A DNA stretch of 64,000 nt, from IMG/VR virus record IMGVR_UViG_3300036860_000057, positions 1-64,000 of that record, one strand, 5' to 3'. Made by a program: the position numbers and the translations under genes. This stretch comes from a virus. The notes under the pieces were generated by a model. The model was not told the DNA's origin. It searched no databases and worked only from the letters and a program-made list of their open reading frames with translations. Positions 12,522 through 50,184 of this stretch are shown one piece after another (position 1 is the stretch's first letter; every line of letters starts with the position of its first letter).

Positions 12522-12586
12522 TTCTTCTGGAGAGGCTCGAACTCTCAACTGCCTTGCGGCATTTTGCCAATTAAACTACAGAAGAA
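12522..12586 (-). ncRNA. tRNA-like element without an anticodon loop
   Basis: A 65-nt minus-strand element with an acceptor stem (TCTTCTG/CAGAAGA), a normal D-arm (TAGTTTAATTGGCAAAAT) and a perfect T-arm (GAGAG-TTCGAGC-CTCTC). Where the 17-nt anticodon arm should be there is only TGCC-GCAA-GGCA, a four-pair stem with a GNRA tetraloop, so there is no anticodon. It may be a structural domain of the surrounding large RNA or a tRNA mimic. Confidence 0.7.
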
Positions 12587-12635
12587 ACCACTTCCACTGA
12601 TATATACAATGGGTTCGACAGTTGCCACTGTCTAG

Positions 12636-12708
12636 TGCCCCTACATGGATTTGAACCATGATCCATCGCTTAGAAGGCGATGGCACTTTCCGTTGTGCTA
12701 TAGAGACA
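12636..12708 (-). tRNA. tRNA-Arg (TCT)
   Basis: 73 nt. Acceptor TGTCTCT/AGGGGCA is seven pairs with G-U wobbles. The anticodon arm is ATCGC-CTTCTAA-GCGAT with anticodon TCT, which reads AGA, and the T-arm contains GGTTCAAATCC. No CCA is encoded. AGA-reading tRNAs are commonly carried by AT-rich phages. It sits inside the 1-kb structured transcript. Confidence 0.92.
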
Positions 12709-14227: not shown

Positions 14228-14841
14228 CTCAACACCGGATCAGAATATACTGTTCCACCCAACTCTATAGCAAACCACGTTGTAGGTATGGTTGTCTCAC
14301 GCAAATAGCAATCTGCATCAGCACTTCCCCAGTACGTGTCAATAGCCCAATACCATAAACAATGTACTAGGATAGGAACTGTAGTTGTATATCTGTCGTG
14401 GAAACCACAGTCAGTGCTAGGACAATCACGAATTCTGAGTTGTGAGCGAGGCTGATAGTATTGGTAGGTGATGATTTTCACAGGATAGGACAGTTCACCT
14501 ATAGGTGTGGGTGTTAGGAATCCAGTAGCAGCAGGTGTCAATGTTGGTGTGGGTGTTAACGTCTGTGTTGATGTCGGCGTATTAGTCGGCGTGGATGGTG
14601 CTTGAGTCTCTGTAGGAACTTCTGTATCAGTGGCAGTTGGTAAGGCAGTGTTCTCTTGAGTTGGCTCATTGGTTGCTGTCTCAGTTGGTGTGAGTTCTGG
14701 TGTAAAGAAGGTAACTTGAACTGAAGGTTCCGAAGTAGGAACTGTAGCAGGAAGAGTAGGAAAGGTTCCTGTAGGTGTGGAGACACATCCAGTCCATGTC
14801 AATATGGTAATTAGAAATAAAACTCTCTTTAAGTTAACCAA
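14224..14841 (-). CDS. Lipoprotein with Thr/Pro stalk and SH3-like domain
   Basis: A 205-residue protein with a lipoprotein signal (MVNLKRVLFLITILTWTGC, lipobox before Cys19), a long Thr/Pro/Glu stalk to about residue 120 and a C-terminal domain with four Cys and a pattern like bacterial SH3 (SQLRIRDCPSTDC). It is expected to be membrane-anchored and exposed, a useful form for superinfection exclusion or wall binding. It overlaps genes on both sides. TPTPT-type stalks are common in Chloroflexota proteins, hinting at host origin. Confidence 0.8.
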   Translation of the reverse strand: MVNLKRVLFLITILTWTGCVSTPTGTFPTLPATVPTSEPSVQVTFFTPELTPTETATNEPTQENTALPTATDTEVPTETQAPSTPTNTPTSTQTLTPTPTLTPAATGFLTPTPIGELSYPVKIITYQYYQPRSQLRIRDCPSTDCGFHDRYTTTVPILVHCLWYWAIDTYWGSADADCYLRETTIPTTWFAIELGGTVYSDPVLR

Positions 14842-24008: not shown

Positions 24009-24074
24009 GGACCTGCTTGGAGTCGAACCAAGTTCTTGTCCCAACCTACGGGACAATCGATACCCATCAGGCCC
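24009..24074 (-). ncRNA. D-arm-reduced tRNA-like element, 66 nt
   Basis: Acceptor GGGCCTG/CAGGTCC is seven pairs and the T-arm CTTGG-TTCGACT-CCAAG is perfect. Between them are 11 unpaired bases and one long arm, TTGTCCC-GTAGGTT-GGGACAA, seven pairs with a seven-base loop. There is no proper D-arm. If the loop is an anticodon loop, T33 is present and the anticodon would be AGG (Pro), but T at position 37 is unusual. It is either a D-armless tRNA or a tRNA mimic. Same transcript as the 65-residue gene upstream. Confidence 0.65.
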
Positions 24075-24098: not shown

Positions 24099-24296
24099 CT
24101 AGTTGTGTGCGTAGACGTAGGTTTCAGCAGAGTTACTAGCTCTGGCGAGTTCCCATGTCTTACTCTTCATCAGCAGCTTCTTCAGTCTGTCTGTCTTAGT
24201 TCCCAGAGGAAATTCCCGTAGGAATGGAAACTCTGTGAACCACATTTGACACACACCGGAACCATACAAGAACTGAATACGGAATAATTTTCTCAT
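24099..24296 (-). CDS. Small basic protein between two tRNA-like genes
   Basis: A 65-residue basic protein, MRKLFRIQFLYGSGVCQMW at its start. ATG at 24296 has GGAG five bases upstream; an ATG just before is too close to that site. It lies between the 47-nt and 66-nt tRNA-like elements on the same strand and probably on one transcript. Unknown family; binding one of those RNAs is a testable idea only. Confidence 0.6.
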   Translation of the reverse strand: MRKLFRIQFLYGSGVCQMWFTEFPFLREFPLGTKTDRLKKLLMKSKTWELARASNSAETYVYAHN

Positions 24297-24329
24297 CATA
24301 TCTCCTGTGAGTGTGGGCAGATGAGATAA

Positions 24330-24376
24330 TGGTGCAGCAGAGACTCGAACTCTGTGTAGGCCCACCTACCACACCA
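24330..24376 (-). ncRNA. 47-nt minimal tRNA-like element
   Basis: Acceptor TGGTGTG/TGCACCA has seven pairs and the T-arm CAGAG-TTCGAGT-CTCTG is perfect with a canonical T-loop. D and anticodon arms are replaced by one five-pair hairpin, GTAGG-TGGG-CCTAC. All but two bases are in these elements. It begins about 20 bases after a predicted transcription start, so it looks like a purposeful first product of the transcript rather than a chance remnant. Confidence 0.7.
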
Positions 24377-30420: not shown

Positions 30421-30898
30421 GATCTGACTCCTGTTTAGGTACTGACTTATAAAAGTATCCATAGACACATCGAGTCCCACCCCGTGTGCAATCATAGGTA
30501 TCATTCAATACCCCATCTATGACTGCTGCGGAATGCTTAGACACATTGACAACTAACCTACCCATAGGCAATTCACCGTCTCGAAGGTGTACAGTACATC
30601 CTTTGCCTATTTGCATAGTTGATACCCATGTCCAGCCAATCGACTCCATATAACGGCGGATAGTTGGCTTGTAGACTCCCGTTCTGGCGTTAGACTTGCC
30701 TTGCTTGTTCTTACTCTTGTGTTCTGTCTTAGCAAGGTTATTAATAGCCTTGTAGACTGTTTTGTAGTTTTGTTCGGTAGCTATTGCAATTGCTCTTACT
30801 ACACAATCTGCGGCTTGTCCTTTATAACCTGCTGCGGATCGCCCACCGTCATTATAATGAAAGGCCATTCCTACTACTGGGGGAAGGCTTGCTGTCAT
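30410..30898 (-). CDS. Papain-like cysteine peptidase-type phage protein
   Basis: A 162-residue protein. FHYNDGGRSAAGYKG, then DCVVRAIAIAT with a Cys in the helix start, later SKHSAAVIDG with His and NDTYD with Asp, give the order Cys-His-Asp of papain-like folds. I recognise this as a common uncharacterised phage family. AAGGAGTCAATC precedes the ATG. A protease, deamidase or transferase activity against a host target is possible, none proven. Confidence 0.65.
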   Translation of the reverse strand: MTASLPPVVGMAFHYNDGGRSAAGYKGQAADCVVRAIAIATEQNYKTVYKAINNLAKTEHKSKNKQGKSNARTGVYKPTIRRYMESIGWTWVSTMQIGKGCTVHLRDGELPMGRLVVNVSKHSAAVIDGVLNDTYDCTRGGTRCVYGYFYKSVPKQESDHGH

Positions 30899-30937
30899 GA
30901 TTGACTCCTTGAGTGTGATTAGATTTGTGCTCTCATG

Positions 30938-30969
30938 AATACTCGTTAAGCCCTACCCTAACGAGTATT
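30938..30969 (-). terminator. Terminator hairpin
   Basis: A perfect 11-pair stem AATACTCGTTA/TAACGAGTATT with a ten-base loop, between two small genes. Confidence 0.7.
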
Positions 30970-30986
30970 AGATCAGAGTACAAAAC

Positions 30987-31307
30987 TTACTGAGCGTTGT
31001 AGTAGTTACGATATAGCTCCATGCCCACAATGTAACCTTGTCCTGTCCATTGGATCACTGTTTCAGGGAAAGGCTTACCCATATCATACTCTATGCCTCG
31101 AACCGCATAGTGCTTAGTCCCTACTAGTGAGAGGCTAATAGTACGATAACGAGTAATCCCGTTCACTTGCCAATTATCCTGACAAGTTACACTGTCTGAG
31201 AATTGATCTACTGTATAGCTCATGTCCTCATATAATGTAACGAGTCGCCCTGGTTGACAATCTGAAGCATGAAACCCTATCAACAACGCGAGTAGTAATG
31301 CTGTCAT
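30987..31307 (-). CDS. Small probably secreted protein
   Basis: A 106-residue protein with a short signal-like start (MTALLLALLIGFHASDC), two Cys and a beta-rich body. AAAGGAGTCACAC precedes the ATG. It is probably exported or lipid-anchored at Cys17. Not recognised. Confidence 0.6.
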   Translation of the reverse strand: MTALLLALLIGFHASDCQPGRLVTLYEDMSYTVDQFSDSVTCQDNWQVNGITRYRTISLSLVGTKHYAVRGIEYDMGKPFPETVIQWTGQGYIVGMELYRNYYNAQ

Positions 31308-31356
31308 GTGTGACTCCTTTAAGTCTGGACTCTTCAGTGTAGCTAGTTAGCTACAG

Positions 31357-31375
31357 ACTGGGGACAAGCCCCAGT
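31357..31375 (-). terminator. Terminator with conserved flank
   Basis: Stem ACTGGGG/CCCCAGT, loop five, directly after the flank CTATAGGACGAAACT on the minus strand, which recurs at 31611-31640. Confidence 0.65.
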
Positions 31376-31381
31376 TTCGTC

Positions 31382-31564
31382 CTATAGCTCCCATCGGGGA
31401 GCATCACCTCGGCGCATCATCTCATCATTGACTAGTTCTAATTCCTTGCGTATCTGATCCTGGTATTCCTCAGTCTGATACAGATCAGGATCATCAAGAA
31501 TAATCAGTAAGTCTAGACGCTTCCAAGAGATTTGTTCGTCGTCTAACTTCTGTAGACTTCTCAT
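31382..31564 (-). CDS. Small acidic helical protein
   Basis: A 60-residue protein, MRSLQKLDDEQISWKRLDL at its start, mostly helical. ATG at 31564 follows AAGGAGTCACATA. Not recognised. Confidence 0.6.
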   Translation of the reverse strand: MRSLQKLDDEQISWKRLDLLIILDDPDLYQTEEYQDQIRKELELVNDEMMRRGDAPRWEL

Positions 31565-31610
31565 TATGTGACTCCTTGTTAGGCTCATCAGTACAGGCTA
31601 TTACCTGTAG

Positions 31611-31631
31611 ACTAGGGAAAGTATCCCTAGT
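31611..31631 (-). terminator. Terminator with conserved flank
   Basis: Perfect eight-pair stem ACTAGGGA/TCCCTAGT, loop five, preceded on the minus strand by the same CTATAGGACGAAACT flank as the hairpin at 31357. Confidence 0.65.
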
Positions 31632-31637
31632 TTCGTC

Positions 31638-31901
31638 CTATAGACCAAATCCGTTATCAATAAAGAAACGAGTAAACCCTATTTCAACAATTCCCCATAC
31701 AGTGGTCTTGATTAGACCCTCGTTGTTATTAAGAAAATATTGCTTACCCCAGTAAGGATCAATCTTGATTTGAATAACCGTGAAAGTGTGATTTTTCTGC
31801 ATATGGAATAACGTACCGTCAATCCTGACAACATCCCCTACTGACAACATAGGATCAGGATTAGTTTTAACTGGAACTAGAGGCATACGAAACTTAAGCA
31901 T
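31638..31901 (-). CDS. Small beta-rich hypothetical protein
   Basis: An 87-residue protein, MLKFRMPLVPVKTNPD at its start, with the strand pattern of a small SH3-like barrel (VGDVVRIDGTLFHM, FTVIQIKIDPYWG). ATG at 31901 follows AAGGAGTCTACCA; the longer frame to 31985 is rejected. Not recognised. Confidence 0.6.
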   Translation of the reverse strand: MLKFRMPLVPVKTNPDPMLSVGDVVRIDGTLFHMQKNHTFTVIQIKIDPYWGKQYFLNNNEGLIKTTVWGIVEIGFTRFFIDNGFGL

Positions 31902-31912
31902 TGGTAGACTCC

Positions 31913-32128
31913 TTATTTCACGAAAGTATAAATAGGGCGATTGTACTGTGCTGCTAATTTCATTAACTCTACTGCTACCGCCCATTCACAATTGTACTTA
32001 TTGCATATTGTTTCCACTACTGCTATCTGCTGAGGCGTTCCGCTTAGTCGCATCTTAGACTCTAGTGAATTAGAGTAAGAGGCTGTAAGTAGGTCGTCTG
32101 GGTTGTACTGGCTGATTACTGTGTTCAT
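31913..32128 (-). CDS. Small hypothetical protein, first gene of the minus array
   Basis: A 71-residue protein with a possible helix-turn-helix-like stretch (TPQQIAVVETICNKYNCEWAVAVELMK, quoted in parts: TPQQIAVVETICNK and CEWAVAVELMK). The promoter at 32181-32209 lies about 50 bases upstream. Binding site weak. Not recognised. Confidence 0.55.
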   Translation of the reverse strand: MNTVISQYNPDDLLTASYSNSLESKMRLSGTPQQIAVVETICNKYNCEWAVAVELMKLAAQYNRPIYTFVK

Positions 32129-32180
32129 CTGATTAGCTCTATGTTGTGTGTGTGTTTGCTTAATCTCGAACTATGACAAC

Positions 32181-32209
32181 ATCATAATCTATAATTATAA
32201 ACTTGTCAA
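32181..32209 (-). promoter_or_regulatory. Promoter of the minus-strand small-gene array
   Basis: On the minus strand TTGACA and TATGAT are 17 bases apart, with the ACTTGACA form. Confidence 0.75.
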
Positions 32210-32424
32210 GTATTTGATCCTTAAAGAATTCAGATTGGTAATTTGAGTACAATAATAGGGTTTGACTTATGGTTAGAGTTGTTACCATAAGTTAGGATGA
32301 TAACGTTATGTTGTTATTTATTTTAATGAGAGCATGAGTGTGCGCCTGCGTGCGTGTGCGTGTGTAATGGTATATTGCATCGACACACACGAGAACTCAT
32401 ACTTTCAACATTTTAATTATTCAC
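32210..32424. other. Divergent control region with hairpins
   Basis: A gene-free stretch between diverging operons. It holds a nine-pair inverted repeat ACTTATGGT/ACCATAAGT (32265-32292) and a GT-rich tract (32334-32365) whose CGTGTGT and ATGAGT can pair with ACACACG and ACTCAT at 32385-32400. Probably regulator binding sites or a leader RNA. Confidence 0.45.
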
Positions 32425-41762: not shown

Positions 41763-43814
41763 ATGGCAGATTTACAAAATAGTCTACAGATTGTGTCAGA
41801 AATAAAAGAAGTAAACCCAGCAACTATCAGTGATAGATCAGTTGTTGAGACTCCACGTGTTGATGAACGGATGAATCCGATCAGCCCTCTGGTAATGTTC
41901 ATAGCCAACAATGCAGATGGTATGATTCCCTGGGGCAAGGCACTTAAGGCCAGAGATGCTCAGCTTCGATCATTCTGGTTGGAAGAGTCTTTGTTATCCT
42001 CTGCTGTGTTTAGTATGTCAGCGAGAATGGCAGTCTTAGGCTATGAAATAGTCAACTCCGATCCTGATAAGCCTCGCCAGAAGAATACTATCATGGCAGT
42101 TGAAAGAATGCTTCGCAACTCAGATCGTGGTAAGGGTTGGCAGGTGTTTCTAGTTAAACTTCTGGTTGATCTCTACACTCAGGATAATGGTGCATTTATT
42201 GAACTGATCCGTAAAGAGAATCGTCCTGATTCACCTGTGATTAATATTGCTCACCTTGACTCTTACTCTTGTTATCGCACAGGTGATCCTCTCATTCCAG
42301 TGATCTATCGAGATCGTTTTGGCAATGATCACAAGATGCCTTGGTGGTCTATTCAGACTGTCGAGGAAATGCCTTCTCCTGTAGAAACAATGTATGGTGC
42401 TCAGATGTGTGCAGTGACACGATGTCTGATGGCTGCCCAGATCATTCGTGATGTGGCAATTTATAAAAAGGAAAAAATTTCAGGACAGTTTGCCAAGGCC
42501 CTACACTTTATATCTGGTATTGCTAAAGGCAACGTTGAGGATGGGATTCAATTGGCAAATGAGAATGCCATGAACCAGAATCTTACCCACTATATTCAGC
42601 CTCCTATCATCTCAACAATTGATCCAGATGCCTCACTAACCCATGTGCAGATTGATCTTGCATCACTGCCTGATGGGTTTAATGAAGACCTGACTTTACA
42701 ATGGTACGTCACACAACTGGCAGTAGCCTTTGGTGTTGACTACCAAGAGTTTGCCCCTCTAACAAGTGGAAGTATGGGATCAGGCCAGCAGTCTGAGACA
42801 CTGCATTTGAAGTCTCGTGGTAAGGGGCCTGCTCTGCTGATCAGTATGCTGGAGCATATTCTAAATGATACAGGTGTTCTTCCTTCCAATATAAAGTTTC
42901 AATTCTTGGTTACAGATGCACAGGCTGATGAAGCTCGTGCTAATGCTAGATTCCTACGTGGTAAGGATCGTGCTTTGCGTGTGTCTTCTGGTGAATTGGA
43001 TATTGAAGCTGCTCGTGAATTGGCAAAAGAAGACTCAGATATACCAGTATGGTTATTAGAGTCAATGAAGAATCGTCCTATTCCAACACCAGTGAATCAG
43101 CAGTTGAATGGTGGTGGAGGCTCTGCACCTGCTCCTAAGCAGAGAACTGCTATCGGGAATGAGAATGTGGAAGGTGGGTTGAACTCCAGGGCTACTAGAA
43201 AGTCCTATGAGAGTGATCTGGTTCGATCTGAGATAATAAAAAGGCTCCTTGAAAGAGGGGATATGAAGGAGATTGATCCTTCTGGATTTGTCTATCTTTG
43301 TTTAGAGAATGATCCACAAATTACCAGTATACTAAGAGATTATCAGCAACTTATGGATGATCCCAATATTGAATGGCAATCTGTTCCCACTTTTCATATT
43401 ACACTTGCTTATGCTCCAGAAGTAACTTATGCACAACTTCTTGAAGTATCTCAGTCTATTCACATGCCTCAGCCTATACCAGTTGATCTTGATCATATTC
43501 ATATGTTTGAAGCAGGGAATGATTCTTTTGCTCGTGCTCTAGTGATGCTAGTGAAGAAGAATGAATATCTAATTCAGTTGCAGAAACAAGTTGTAGACAT
43601 TTTTAATGGAATGGGAATTTTACTATCTCCCTACAGTAATCCTGATGTGTGGACTCCTCATATCACTATTGGGTATATTCCAAGTAGTGCGGATGTTCCA
43701 GAAGTTTTACCACCTATGTATCATAGAATAATAGCAGATAAGACGGTAGTAGGTAAAGGCGACTATGAAAAATTTGCAACTATCCAAGCCCCTAAAATGG
43801 GTGGTGTATATTAA
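41763..43814 (+). CDS. Portal protein fused to a 2H phosphoesterase-like domain
   Basis: A 683-residue protein. The first ~480 residues have the order and composition of HK97-type portals (SARMAVLGYEIV, FIELIRKEN, DYQEFAPLTSGSMGSGQQSE), forming the dodecameric DNA gate. After a Gly/Ala/Pro linker, residues ~500-683 hold two HxT motifs, His545-x-Thr547 and His633-x-Thr635, 88 residues apart, as in the 2H (LigT / 2',5' RNA ligase) superfamily. Such a fusion is unusual. GAGGACAG precedes the ATG. Confidence 0.85.
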   Translation: MADLQNSLQIVSEIKEVNPATISDRSVVETPRVDERMNPISPLVMFIANNADGMIPWGKALKARDAQLRSFWLEESLLSSAVFSMSARMAVLGYEIVNSDPDKPRQKNTIMAVERMLRNSDRGKGWQVFLVKLLVDLYTQDNGAFIELIRKENRPDSPVINIAHLDSYSCYRTGDPLIPVIYRDRFGNDHKMPWWSIQTVEEMPSPVETMYGAQMCAVTRCLMAAQIIRDVAIYKKEKISGQFAKALHFISGIAKGNVEDGIQLANENAMNQNLTHYIQPPIISTIDPDASLTHVQIDLASLPDGFNEDLTLQWYVTQLAVAFGVDYQEFAPLTSGSMGSGQQSETLHLKSRGKGPALLISMLEHILNDTGVLPSNIKFQFLVTDAQADEARANARFLRGKDRALRVSSGELDIEAARELAKEDSDIPVWLLESMKNRPIPTPVNQQLNGGGGSAPAPKQRTAIGNENVEGGLNSRATRKSYESDLVRSEIIKRLLERGDMKEIDPSGFVYLCLENDPQITSILRDYQQLMDDPNIEWQSVPTFHITLAYAPEVTYAQLLEVSQSIHMPQPIPVDLDHIHMFEAGNDSFARALVMLVKKNEYLIQLQKQVVDIFNGMGILLSPYSNPDVWTPHITIGYIPSSADVPEVLPPMYHRIIADKTVVGKGDYEKFATIQAPKMGGVY

Positions 43815-49252: not shown

Positions 49253-49324
49253 GCGTGTGTGGTGTTAATGGTAGCATCACACTCTTCCAAAGTGAAGGTT
49301 AGGGTTCGAGTCCCTACACACGCA
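49253..49324 (+). tRNA. tRNA-Gly (TCC)
   Basis: 72 nt. Acceptor GCGTGTG/CACACGC, loop CTTCCAA with anticodon TCC (reads GGA), T-arm TAGGG-TTCGAGT-CCCTA, discriminator A, no encoded CCA. Starts two bases after boxA. Confidence 0.93.
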
Positions 49325-49361
49325 CAAGCTGGGGTGTTCCCAGCATAGCAAGGAGACACTT

Positions 49362-49491: not shown

Positions 49492-49562
49492 ACATCTGTG
49501 ATCTAATGGTAAGAGCACAATCTCCAAAATTGTGAATCCTCGTCCGAATCGAGGCAGATGTG
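49492..49562 (+). tRNA. tRNA-Trp (CCA)
   Basis: 71 nt. Acceptor ACATCTG/CAGATGT with G discriminator as in most Trp tRNAs, anticodon arm ACAAT-CTCCAAA-ATTGT with anticodon CCA, T-arm CCTCG-TCCGAAT-CGAGG. The T-loop has C at its second position, a small deviation. Confidence 0.9.
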
Positions 49563-49596
49563 CTGACCAGTTATCATCATTCCAAAGGAGGAATAA

Positions 49597-49752
49597 ATGT
49601 TCAACTGGGGCCGTATAAGAACGGTGCTATTGGGGTTGCTTCTTATTGCAGCAGGACTAATTCTGGCGTTCAATCTGAACTTCACCAACATGAATTATGT
49701 CCTTGCTGTACTGGCAATCTTCGATGGCGTTCTATGGATTATATTTCCATAG
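49597..49752 (+). CDS. Small membrane protein inside the tRNA cluster
   Basis: A 51-residue protein with an excellent binding site (AAAGGAGG). MFNWGRIRTVLLGLLLIAAG begins it; two hydrophobic helices follow (TVLLGLLLIAAGLILAF; VLAVLAIFDGVLWIIF). Its place within a tRNA operon is odd. Function unknown. Confidence 0.7.
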   Translation: MFNWGRIRTVLLGLLLIAAGLILAFNLNFTNMNYVLAVLAIFDGVLWIIFP

Positions 49753-49758
49753 AAAAAT

Positions 49759-49803
49759 GGAAGGTCTGATACTGGAGTAAGATGTTCGAACCATCAGCCT
49801 TCC
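49759..49803 (+). ncRNA. Possible T-arm/acceptor tRNA-like hairpin
   Basis: GGAAGGT/GCCTTCC form a seven-pair acceptor and GATG-TTCGAAC-CATC a four-pair T-arm; no other arm exists (45 nt). However, CTGAT can pair with ATCAG instead, giving a longer simple hairpin, so the tRNA-like reading is uncertain. Confidence 0.4.
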
Positions 49804-49869: not shown

Positions 49870-49941
49870 GCCAACATAGCACAATGGTAGTGCAAATCTT
49901 TTGTAAAGATTAGGCTGAGAGTTCGAATCCCTCTGTTGGCT
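49870..49941 (+). tRNA. tRNA-Thr (TGT)
   Basis: 72 nt. Acceptor GCCAACA/TGTTGGC, anticodon arm AATCT-TTTGTAA-AGATT with anticodon TGT (reads ACA), T-arm GAGAG-TTCGAAT-CCCTC with one A-C mismatch, discriminator T, no encoded CCA. Confidence 0.92.
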
Positions 49942-50009
49942 CTTAGGGCAGTAAGTGTGGGGCAAGGCTTAGGCATAACCTTGAATATCTGTACTGCCCT
50001 ATATAAATT

Positions 50010-50128: not shown

Positions 50129-50184
50129 GGGCCAATTATTCCGGTGAATGCTAGCTATGGCGGATTCGACTCCCGCTTGGTCCG
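50129..50184 (+). ncRNA. 56-nt minimal tRNA-like element
   Basis: Acceptor GGGCCAA/TTGGTCC (seven pairs) with G discriminator. The T-arm, directly adjacent as in tRNA, has loop TTCGACT and a stem of four pairs plus one A-C mismatch. Between them are only 24 bases with a four-pair hairpin ATTC-CGGT-GAAT. No anticodon arm. Closely parallels the 47-nt element at 24330. Confidence 0.65.

Follow-up and report, generated by a model that had tools for sequence, protein, structure and literature searches.

A putative minimal tRNA-like element between viral genes and similar elements in actinophage operons

Small tRNA-like structures are known to be used for purposes other than decoding. Cleavage by RNase P at mascRNA makes the 3' end of MALAT1, and the tRNA-like domain of tmRNA has no anticodon arm and is built from an acceptor stem with G3:U70 and a T-arm. 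Punctuating tRNAs of mitochondria and the t-elements of plant mitochondria lie between genes, and their cleavage by RNase P and RNase Z sets the ends of mRNAs; the t-elements are often CCA-tailed and are not charged (PMC11658184, PMC8003010). Model hairpins of acceptor stem, T-stem and T-loop are cleaved by RNase P at the correct site (PMC11143913), one study of RNase P found a U at −1 to be favourable (PMC12710915), and the tRNA elbow is recognised by RNase P, RNase Z and the CCA enzyme (PMC4810234). Here we describe a tRNA-like element from the virus record G000 of IMG/VR (78,573 bases), whose bases 1–64000 make up the window, the whole stretch of DNA analysed.

Sequence and fold of the focal element

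The element lies on the minus strand at 24331–24375 and is 45 nt long, with a U at position −1 (24376) and an A73-like discriminator at 24330; CCA is not encoded, the next bases being TTA. Read from 5' to 3', U−1 is followed by the acceptor strand GGUGUGG (24375–24369), a mini-hairpin of UAGG, UGGG and CCUA (24368–24357), the dinucleotide CA, the T-arm CAGAG-UUCGAGU-CUCUG (24354–24338) and the second acceptor strand CUGCACC (24337–24331), which ends at A73. The acceptor stem is fully paired (7/7, with two G-U pairs), the T-stem has five of five pairs and the T-loop is canonical. The tRNA-like build of 47 nt at 24330–24376 that a sequence-only reading had proposed, with an acceptor stem, a perfect T-arm and one hairpin, was thus seen on the minus strand. 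Its seven acceptor pairs hold as a 7/7 stem, the pair that it had placed outermost being U−1:A73. The mini-hairpin was also found, with four pairs instead of the proposed five, because the fifth (G..C) would need the acceptor base G7.

The same reading considered both the D arm and the anticodon arm to be gone. The anticodon arm is indeed absent: 45 nt leave no room for it, and the element is not called by ARAGORN. The D arm, in contrast, is probably reduced and not lost. Because a loop GG is what a D loop presents to the T-loop, we read the 4-bp mini-hairpin as a probable reduced D arm, whose GG resembles G18G19, and it is probably not an anticodon arm. The loops of the mini-hairpins in G000 are UGGG (24331), UGGA (element 49759) and CGGU (element 50129), and similar YGGN loops were found in unrelated phage mini elements, namely UGGA (L234, L254), CGGA (L173) and CGGG (L181). 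The acceptor pair 3:70 of the focal element is U3:A70 and not G3:U70. A U at −1 is common to all five tRNA-like elements and all four tRNAs of G000.

When the bare 47-mer was folded with RNAfold, whose energies contain no tertiary D/T-loop terms, an alternative fold reached −18.2 kcal/mol and the tRNA-like fold −15.6 kcal/mol, so that the latter was disfavoured by 2.6 kcal/mol. The sole Rfam match of 24331–24375 was mascRNA-menRNA, with the same ends, at 26.1 bits against a gathering score of 42.5. The Rfam tRNA model RF00005 (gathering cut-off 29 bits) gave no match for 24331 or for elements 24009, 49759 and 50129. An exact-sequence search with the focal element returned no match, and blastn of the element in phages a single short, chance-like one.

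Sister elements and their setting in G000

A scan of the whole record (78.6 kb) gave five tRNA-like elements, at 12523, 24009 and 24331 on the minus strand and at 49759 and 50129 on the plus strand. Three of them, at 50129, 24009 and 12522, had already been pointed out in the sequence-only reading and were confirmed, whereas 49759 had been overlooked. Element 24009 (24009–24074, 66 nt) carries G3:U70 and A73, and its middle is a 7-bp hairpin with a 7-nt loop. Element 12523 (12523–12585, 63 nt) keeps its D arm, and GCC-GCAA-GGC replaces the anticodon arm; it alone among the five passes the Rfam tRNA cut-off (42.5 bits), and it also matches the Deinococcus Y RNA of Rfam at 26.5 bits, under the gathering score. 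On the plus strand, element 49759 (49759–49803, 45 nt) has the mini-hairpin UAC-UGGA-GUA and A73, and element 50129 (50129–50183, 55 nt) has G3:U70, the mini-hairpin AUUC-CGGU-GAAU and G73. All five acceptor stems are paired 7/7, and the T-stems of 49759 and 50129 are paired 4/5. Charging with alanine, for which G3:U70 is the determinant, is conceivable for 24009 and 50129, of which only 24009 has A73.

Three elements (12523, 24009 and 24331) satisfy a strict definition with a T-stem of 5/5, an acceptor stem of 7/7 and a middle of 8–36 nt. The mean in 300 dinucleotide shuffles of G000 was 0.02, and none of the 300 reached three. A strict scan of 169 other phage loci (2.37 Mb) gave none outside tRNAs, the only match overlapping an annotated tRNA.

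The focal element is followed on the minus strand by AGGAG (24302–24306) as a Shine-Dalgarno sequence, a small ORF of 66 aa (24099–24299), element 24009, which starts 24 nt after the stop of this ORF, and a 132-aa gene. Upstream there is a predicted sigma-70-type promoter, TTGACA-18-TAGAAT (24432–24403, minus strand). The earlier claim of a promoter just before the element holds as a consensus match of 11/12 positions, but shuffled versions of the region around 24331 contain sigma-70-like sites at least as often. As the element is so near the predicted promoter, cleavage would remove a short leader only.

ARAGORN found four ordinary tRNAs in the window, namely tRNA-Arg(TCT) at 12635–12707 on the minus strand, and tRNA-Gly(TCC) at 49253–49325, tRNA-Trp(CCA) at 49492–49563 and tRNA-Thr(TGT) at 49870–49942 on the plus strand. 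The plus-strand order is tRNA-Gly, a 26-codon ORF, tRNA-Trp, a 51-aa ORF (49597–49752), element 49759, tRNA-Thr, a short ORF and element 50129, the shortest ORFs of this region having been read by eye. Element 49759 lies 6 nt past the stop of the 51-aa ORF. Element 12523 shares a gap with tRNA-Arg, and this gap has no predicted genes. Elements are few in G000, and the majority of its gaps are empty.

Other repeated sequences were noticed in the same record. A motif of the type ATTTCTAATTACCATATTGA occurs in either orientation at 14795, 19122, 23986, 27462 and 50095, in some cases adjoining a start codon, and is possibly a promoter or operator. On the minus strand, GACGTGCATA occurs between 24380 and 27489 in three exact copies and a fourth, near one; two of the four lie downstream of predicted promoters, and the total count of this sequence was not above chance. 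We also noticed, downstream of TerL, a 683-aa protein (41763–43814, plus strand) with a C-terminal 2'-5' RNA ligase/LigT-like domain.

Similar elements in other phages

Searches for relatives of G000 with its DUF932-like protein, TerL, exonuclease and DNA polymerase gave only distant matches of at most 35% identity, and its TerL was matched in none of 35 candidate records. Without a close relative by these four proteins, there were no homologues of the focal element for comparison. A DNA pattern based on elements 24009 and 50129 gave 21 viral loci, many of which are fully paired at pattern-free positions and have middles of only 10–37 nt; a second pattern, with the pair 3:70 left free, matched at least 120 loci. 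Sixteen short viral elements (acceptor 7/7, T-stem at least 4/5) overlap no ARAGORN tRNA, and some mini elements sit in loci without any such tRNA. G3:U70 was present in 11 of these 16 elements and in 12 of 27 full-length tRNAs from the same pattern search. We did not conclude that G3:U70 is a general alanine tag, since the letters are partly set by the search patterns and full-length tRNAs carry it too. The G3:U70 pattern also had 28 matches in cellular genomes, 4 of them strict; in three of these four, on contigs of cellular MAGs (L311, L319 and L324), the D arm is seemingly fused directly to the T-arm region. Two further loci (L180, 9346–9412, and L229, 9855–9923) have normal acceptor, D and T arms and an anticodon arm shrunk to a UUCG or triloop mini-arm; the L229 element is called tRNA-Ala by ARAGORN.

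Covariation was examined in 26 elements from other phages, which had been chosen partly by pairing, so that the figures are inflated: 98.1% of cells were paired, compared with 69.3% in shuffles (none of 500 as high), there were 78 double changes compared with 20.8 in shuffles, and sliding the partners by one column lowered the pairing to 51–58%. Less biased than this set are two homologous pairs. In L190 and L191 the middle is identical, there are two compensatory changes in the T-stem and the neighbourhood is conserved; in L194 and L213 the element is kept while the flanks are unalignable.

Models of such elements were compared with G000. Model R2, trained without G000, found 24009 at 39.6 bits (E 2e-5) and 50129 at 31.1 bits (E 9e-4), the best score in a control set of 1.53 Mb being 25.1 bits; it did not find 24331 or 49759 in G000. 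Model R3 was trained mainly on actinophage elements, again leaving G000 out. Its top match in G000 was 24330–24375, with exact ends, although weak at 19.5 bits (E about 0.1) against a control-set best of 26 bits (E 0.072). We therefore group the focal element with the phage mini elements by architecture and company as read from the sequences, and not by proven descent.

Unannotated mini elements of 40–60 nt are present in many actinophages. BLAST with one of them matched unannotated places in 97 records of Mycobacterium (Konstantine, Oaker, Damien), Gordonia (MakoManhole, VanLee, Morgana) and Streptomyces (Endor1, Saftant) phages, and an Endor1-type query matched 448 places in 150 records; some of the records are duplicates, and ordinary T-arms may account for part of the short matches. 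Marshawn and Elezi were BLAST leads as well and were dropped as carriers, since model R3 finds nothing in either.

In VanLee, a pairing scan of both strands (49.6 kb) gave 17 matches, two of them outside operon gaps. In the leftward operon, whose boundaries were set after the first elements there had been seen, gaps of 40 nt or more number 17, and 15 of these hold an element, always on the gene strand and mostly no further than about 30 nt from the stop of the gene upstream. One of the two remaining gaps has a 5+7-bp variant visible by eye, and the other is a 362-nt gap at the upstream end of the operon. The scan scores a 7-bp acceptor, whereas several actinophage elements fit a 6+6 split. In Endor1 the model found seven elements, all seven in gaps, and variants were seen by eye in two further gaps. 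Downstream of several elements of VanLee and Endor1 there are a small hairpin and a sequence resembling a Shine-Dalgarno; in VanLee (L390, 36561–47727) a conserved GGCACCCAAC stands after the small hairpin, between several elements and the next Shine-Dalgarno. An annotated Ro-like RNA binding protein of VanLee (30455–32368) adjoins a tRNA-Arg; a Y RNA may therefore be present in this phage as well.

A possible role in mRNA processing

We put the probability that the focal element serves as tRNA punctuation between cistrons, where RNase P and RNase Z of the host would cut it, at roughly one half. It would be a minimal tRNA mimic, in which an acceptor/T-arm helix and a D-loop-like hairpin docking on the T-loop are combined without an anticodon arm, placed between genes of a co-directional transcript. 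Its 5' end would be made by host RNase P and its 3' end by RNase Z or exonucleases, and the excision would give the mRNAs of the neighbouring small ORFs defined ends. Everything found fits a non-decoding RNA that keeps only the features recognised by RNase P, RNase Z and the CCA enzyme, and the match of these features to the requirements of RNase P was counted in favour of punctuation. The same applies to the position. tRNA-like structures lie between co-directional genes in VanLee, Endor1, Konstantine and, in part, G000, where small ORFs are found among the elements and tRNAs. An operon in which nearly all gaps carry such a structure on the strand of the genes is arranged as tRNA punctuation is; from the sequences, the intercistronic position points first to mRNA processing instead of a decoy. 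That the focal element acts like those of the other phages is an inference, and so are its cleavage, the addition of CCA and the consequence for mRNA. Less in keeping with punctuation are the small number of elements in G000, the site of the focal one near a predicted promoter, the alternative fold preferred by the bare 47-mer and the faint match of the focal element to the models. More broadly, we tentatively suggest, at slightly below even odds, that tailed phages, chiefly actinophages, have a covarying class of anticodon-less elements of 40–60 nt that fills operon gaps and makes mRNA cutters of RNase P and RNase Z, the focal element included.

It seems rather unlikely that the element is a stand-alone non-decoding tRNA mimic, that is, a matured, CCA-tailed, stable and sometimes alanylated small RNA competing for tRNA-acting factors (defence or toxin enzymes that act on the acceptor, T-arm or CCA, trans-translation, or RNase P). 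Such an RNA would agree with the predicted promoter directly upstream of 24331 and with G3:U70 in 24009, 50129 and 11 of the 16 short strict viral elements, and it was suggested that the tRNA-like domain of YrlA might competitively inhibit an anticodon nuclease (PMC7790460). However, it leaves an element in nearly every gap of the VanLee operon unexplained, and the alanylated form does not suit 24331 with its U3:A70; the acceptor letters are partly set by the search patterns, full-length tRNAs show G3:U70 in 12 of 27 cases, and plant t-elements are CCA-tailed yet not aminoacylated (PMC11658184).

We think it unlikely that the elements are full phage tRNAs in decay, from which deletions have taken the anticodon arm and the larger part of the D arm, even though the G000 elements lie near real tRNAs, 12523 is still a tRNA match at 42.5 bits, and 49759 and 50129 have one T-stem mismatch each. 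Against such decay, all five acceptor stems are paired 7/7, the mini forms are conserved with compensatory changes in many phages, some at loci without an ARAGORN tRNA, and YGGN and GCAA loops would not be expected from random deletions. A recent deletion from a full tRNA, named beforehand as what would speak against the element, does not fit the same build in many phages with compensatory stem changes. Some actinophages use repeated intergenic inverted sequences as operators, and the T-arm contains the palindromic sequence GGTTCGANTCC; that this makes the elements sites acting at the DNA level (operator, stoperator or recombination site) is very improbable, given the compensatory stem letters, the constant loop and the gap elements of VanLee all standing on the gene strand.

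If tRNA punctuation is the right reading, long-sequenced phages such as Konstantine, Endor1 and VanLee carry a device best known from organelles, with tRNA mimics that are among the smallest in nature; many of the unannotated stretches between genes of phage operons would be explained, phage mRNA ends would become predictable, and minimal substrates of natural origin would be at hand for RNase P, RNase Z and CCA enzymes. Our literature search, which covered the field incompletely as many subscription papers lay outside it, found no description of such phage elements.

Several known RNAs resemble them in part. The tRNA-like domain of tmRNA shares with 24009 and 50129 the missing anticodon arm, the acceptor with G3:U70 and the T-arm, but the G000 elements have no mRNA-like domain or pseudoknots, and an ARAGORN search for tmRNA in G000 found none. 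The module of bacterial Y RNA (YrlA; RF01053) combines D- and T-arms with a GCAA-capped mini-arm, as does 12523, although 12523 scores under the gathering threshold and the lower-stem pairs are unsupported; TROVE/Ro (PF05731), the protein partner of Y RNA, is absent from the 78.6-kb record. The small non-decoding tRNA mimics mascRNA and menRNA (RF01684) were aligned by Rfam end to end with 24331–24375, but they are mammalian, longer and have a remnant of a third arm, and the focal element stays under their gathering score. The acceptor/T-arm hairpins used as RNase P models have the same minimal architecture and are cleaved at the canonical site (PMC11143913), being laboratory constructs where the phage sequences are natural. 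Mitochondrial punctuation and t-elements likewise place tRNA-like structures between genes; the mitochondrial ones are reported homologues of tRNA genes with a typical tRNA-like secondary structure, whereas the phage elements are 40–66 nt long, their anticodon arm is missing or much altered, and their processing is a proposal. The principle, tRNA punctuation and RNase P mimics, is already known; what appears to be new is how minimal the elements are and that they occur in phages.
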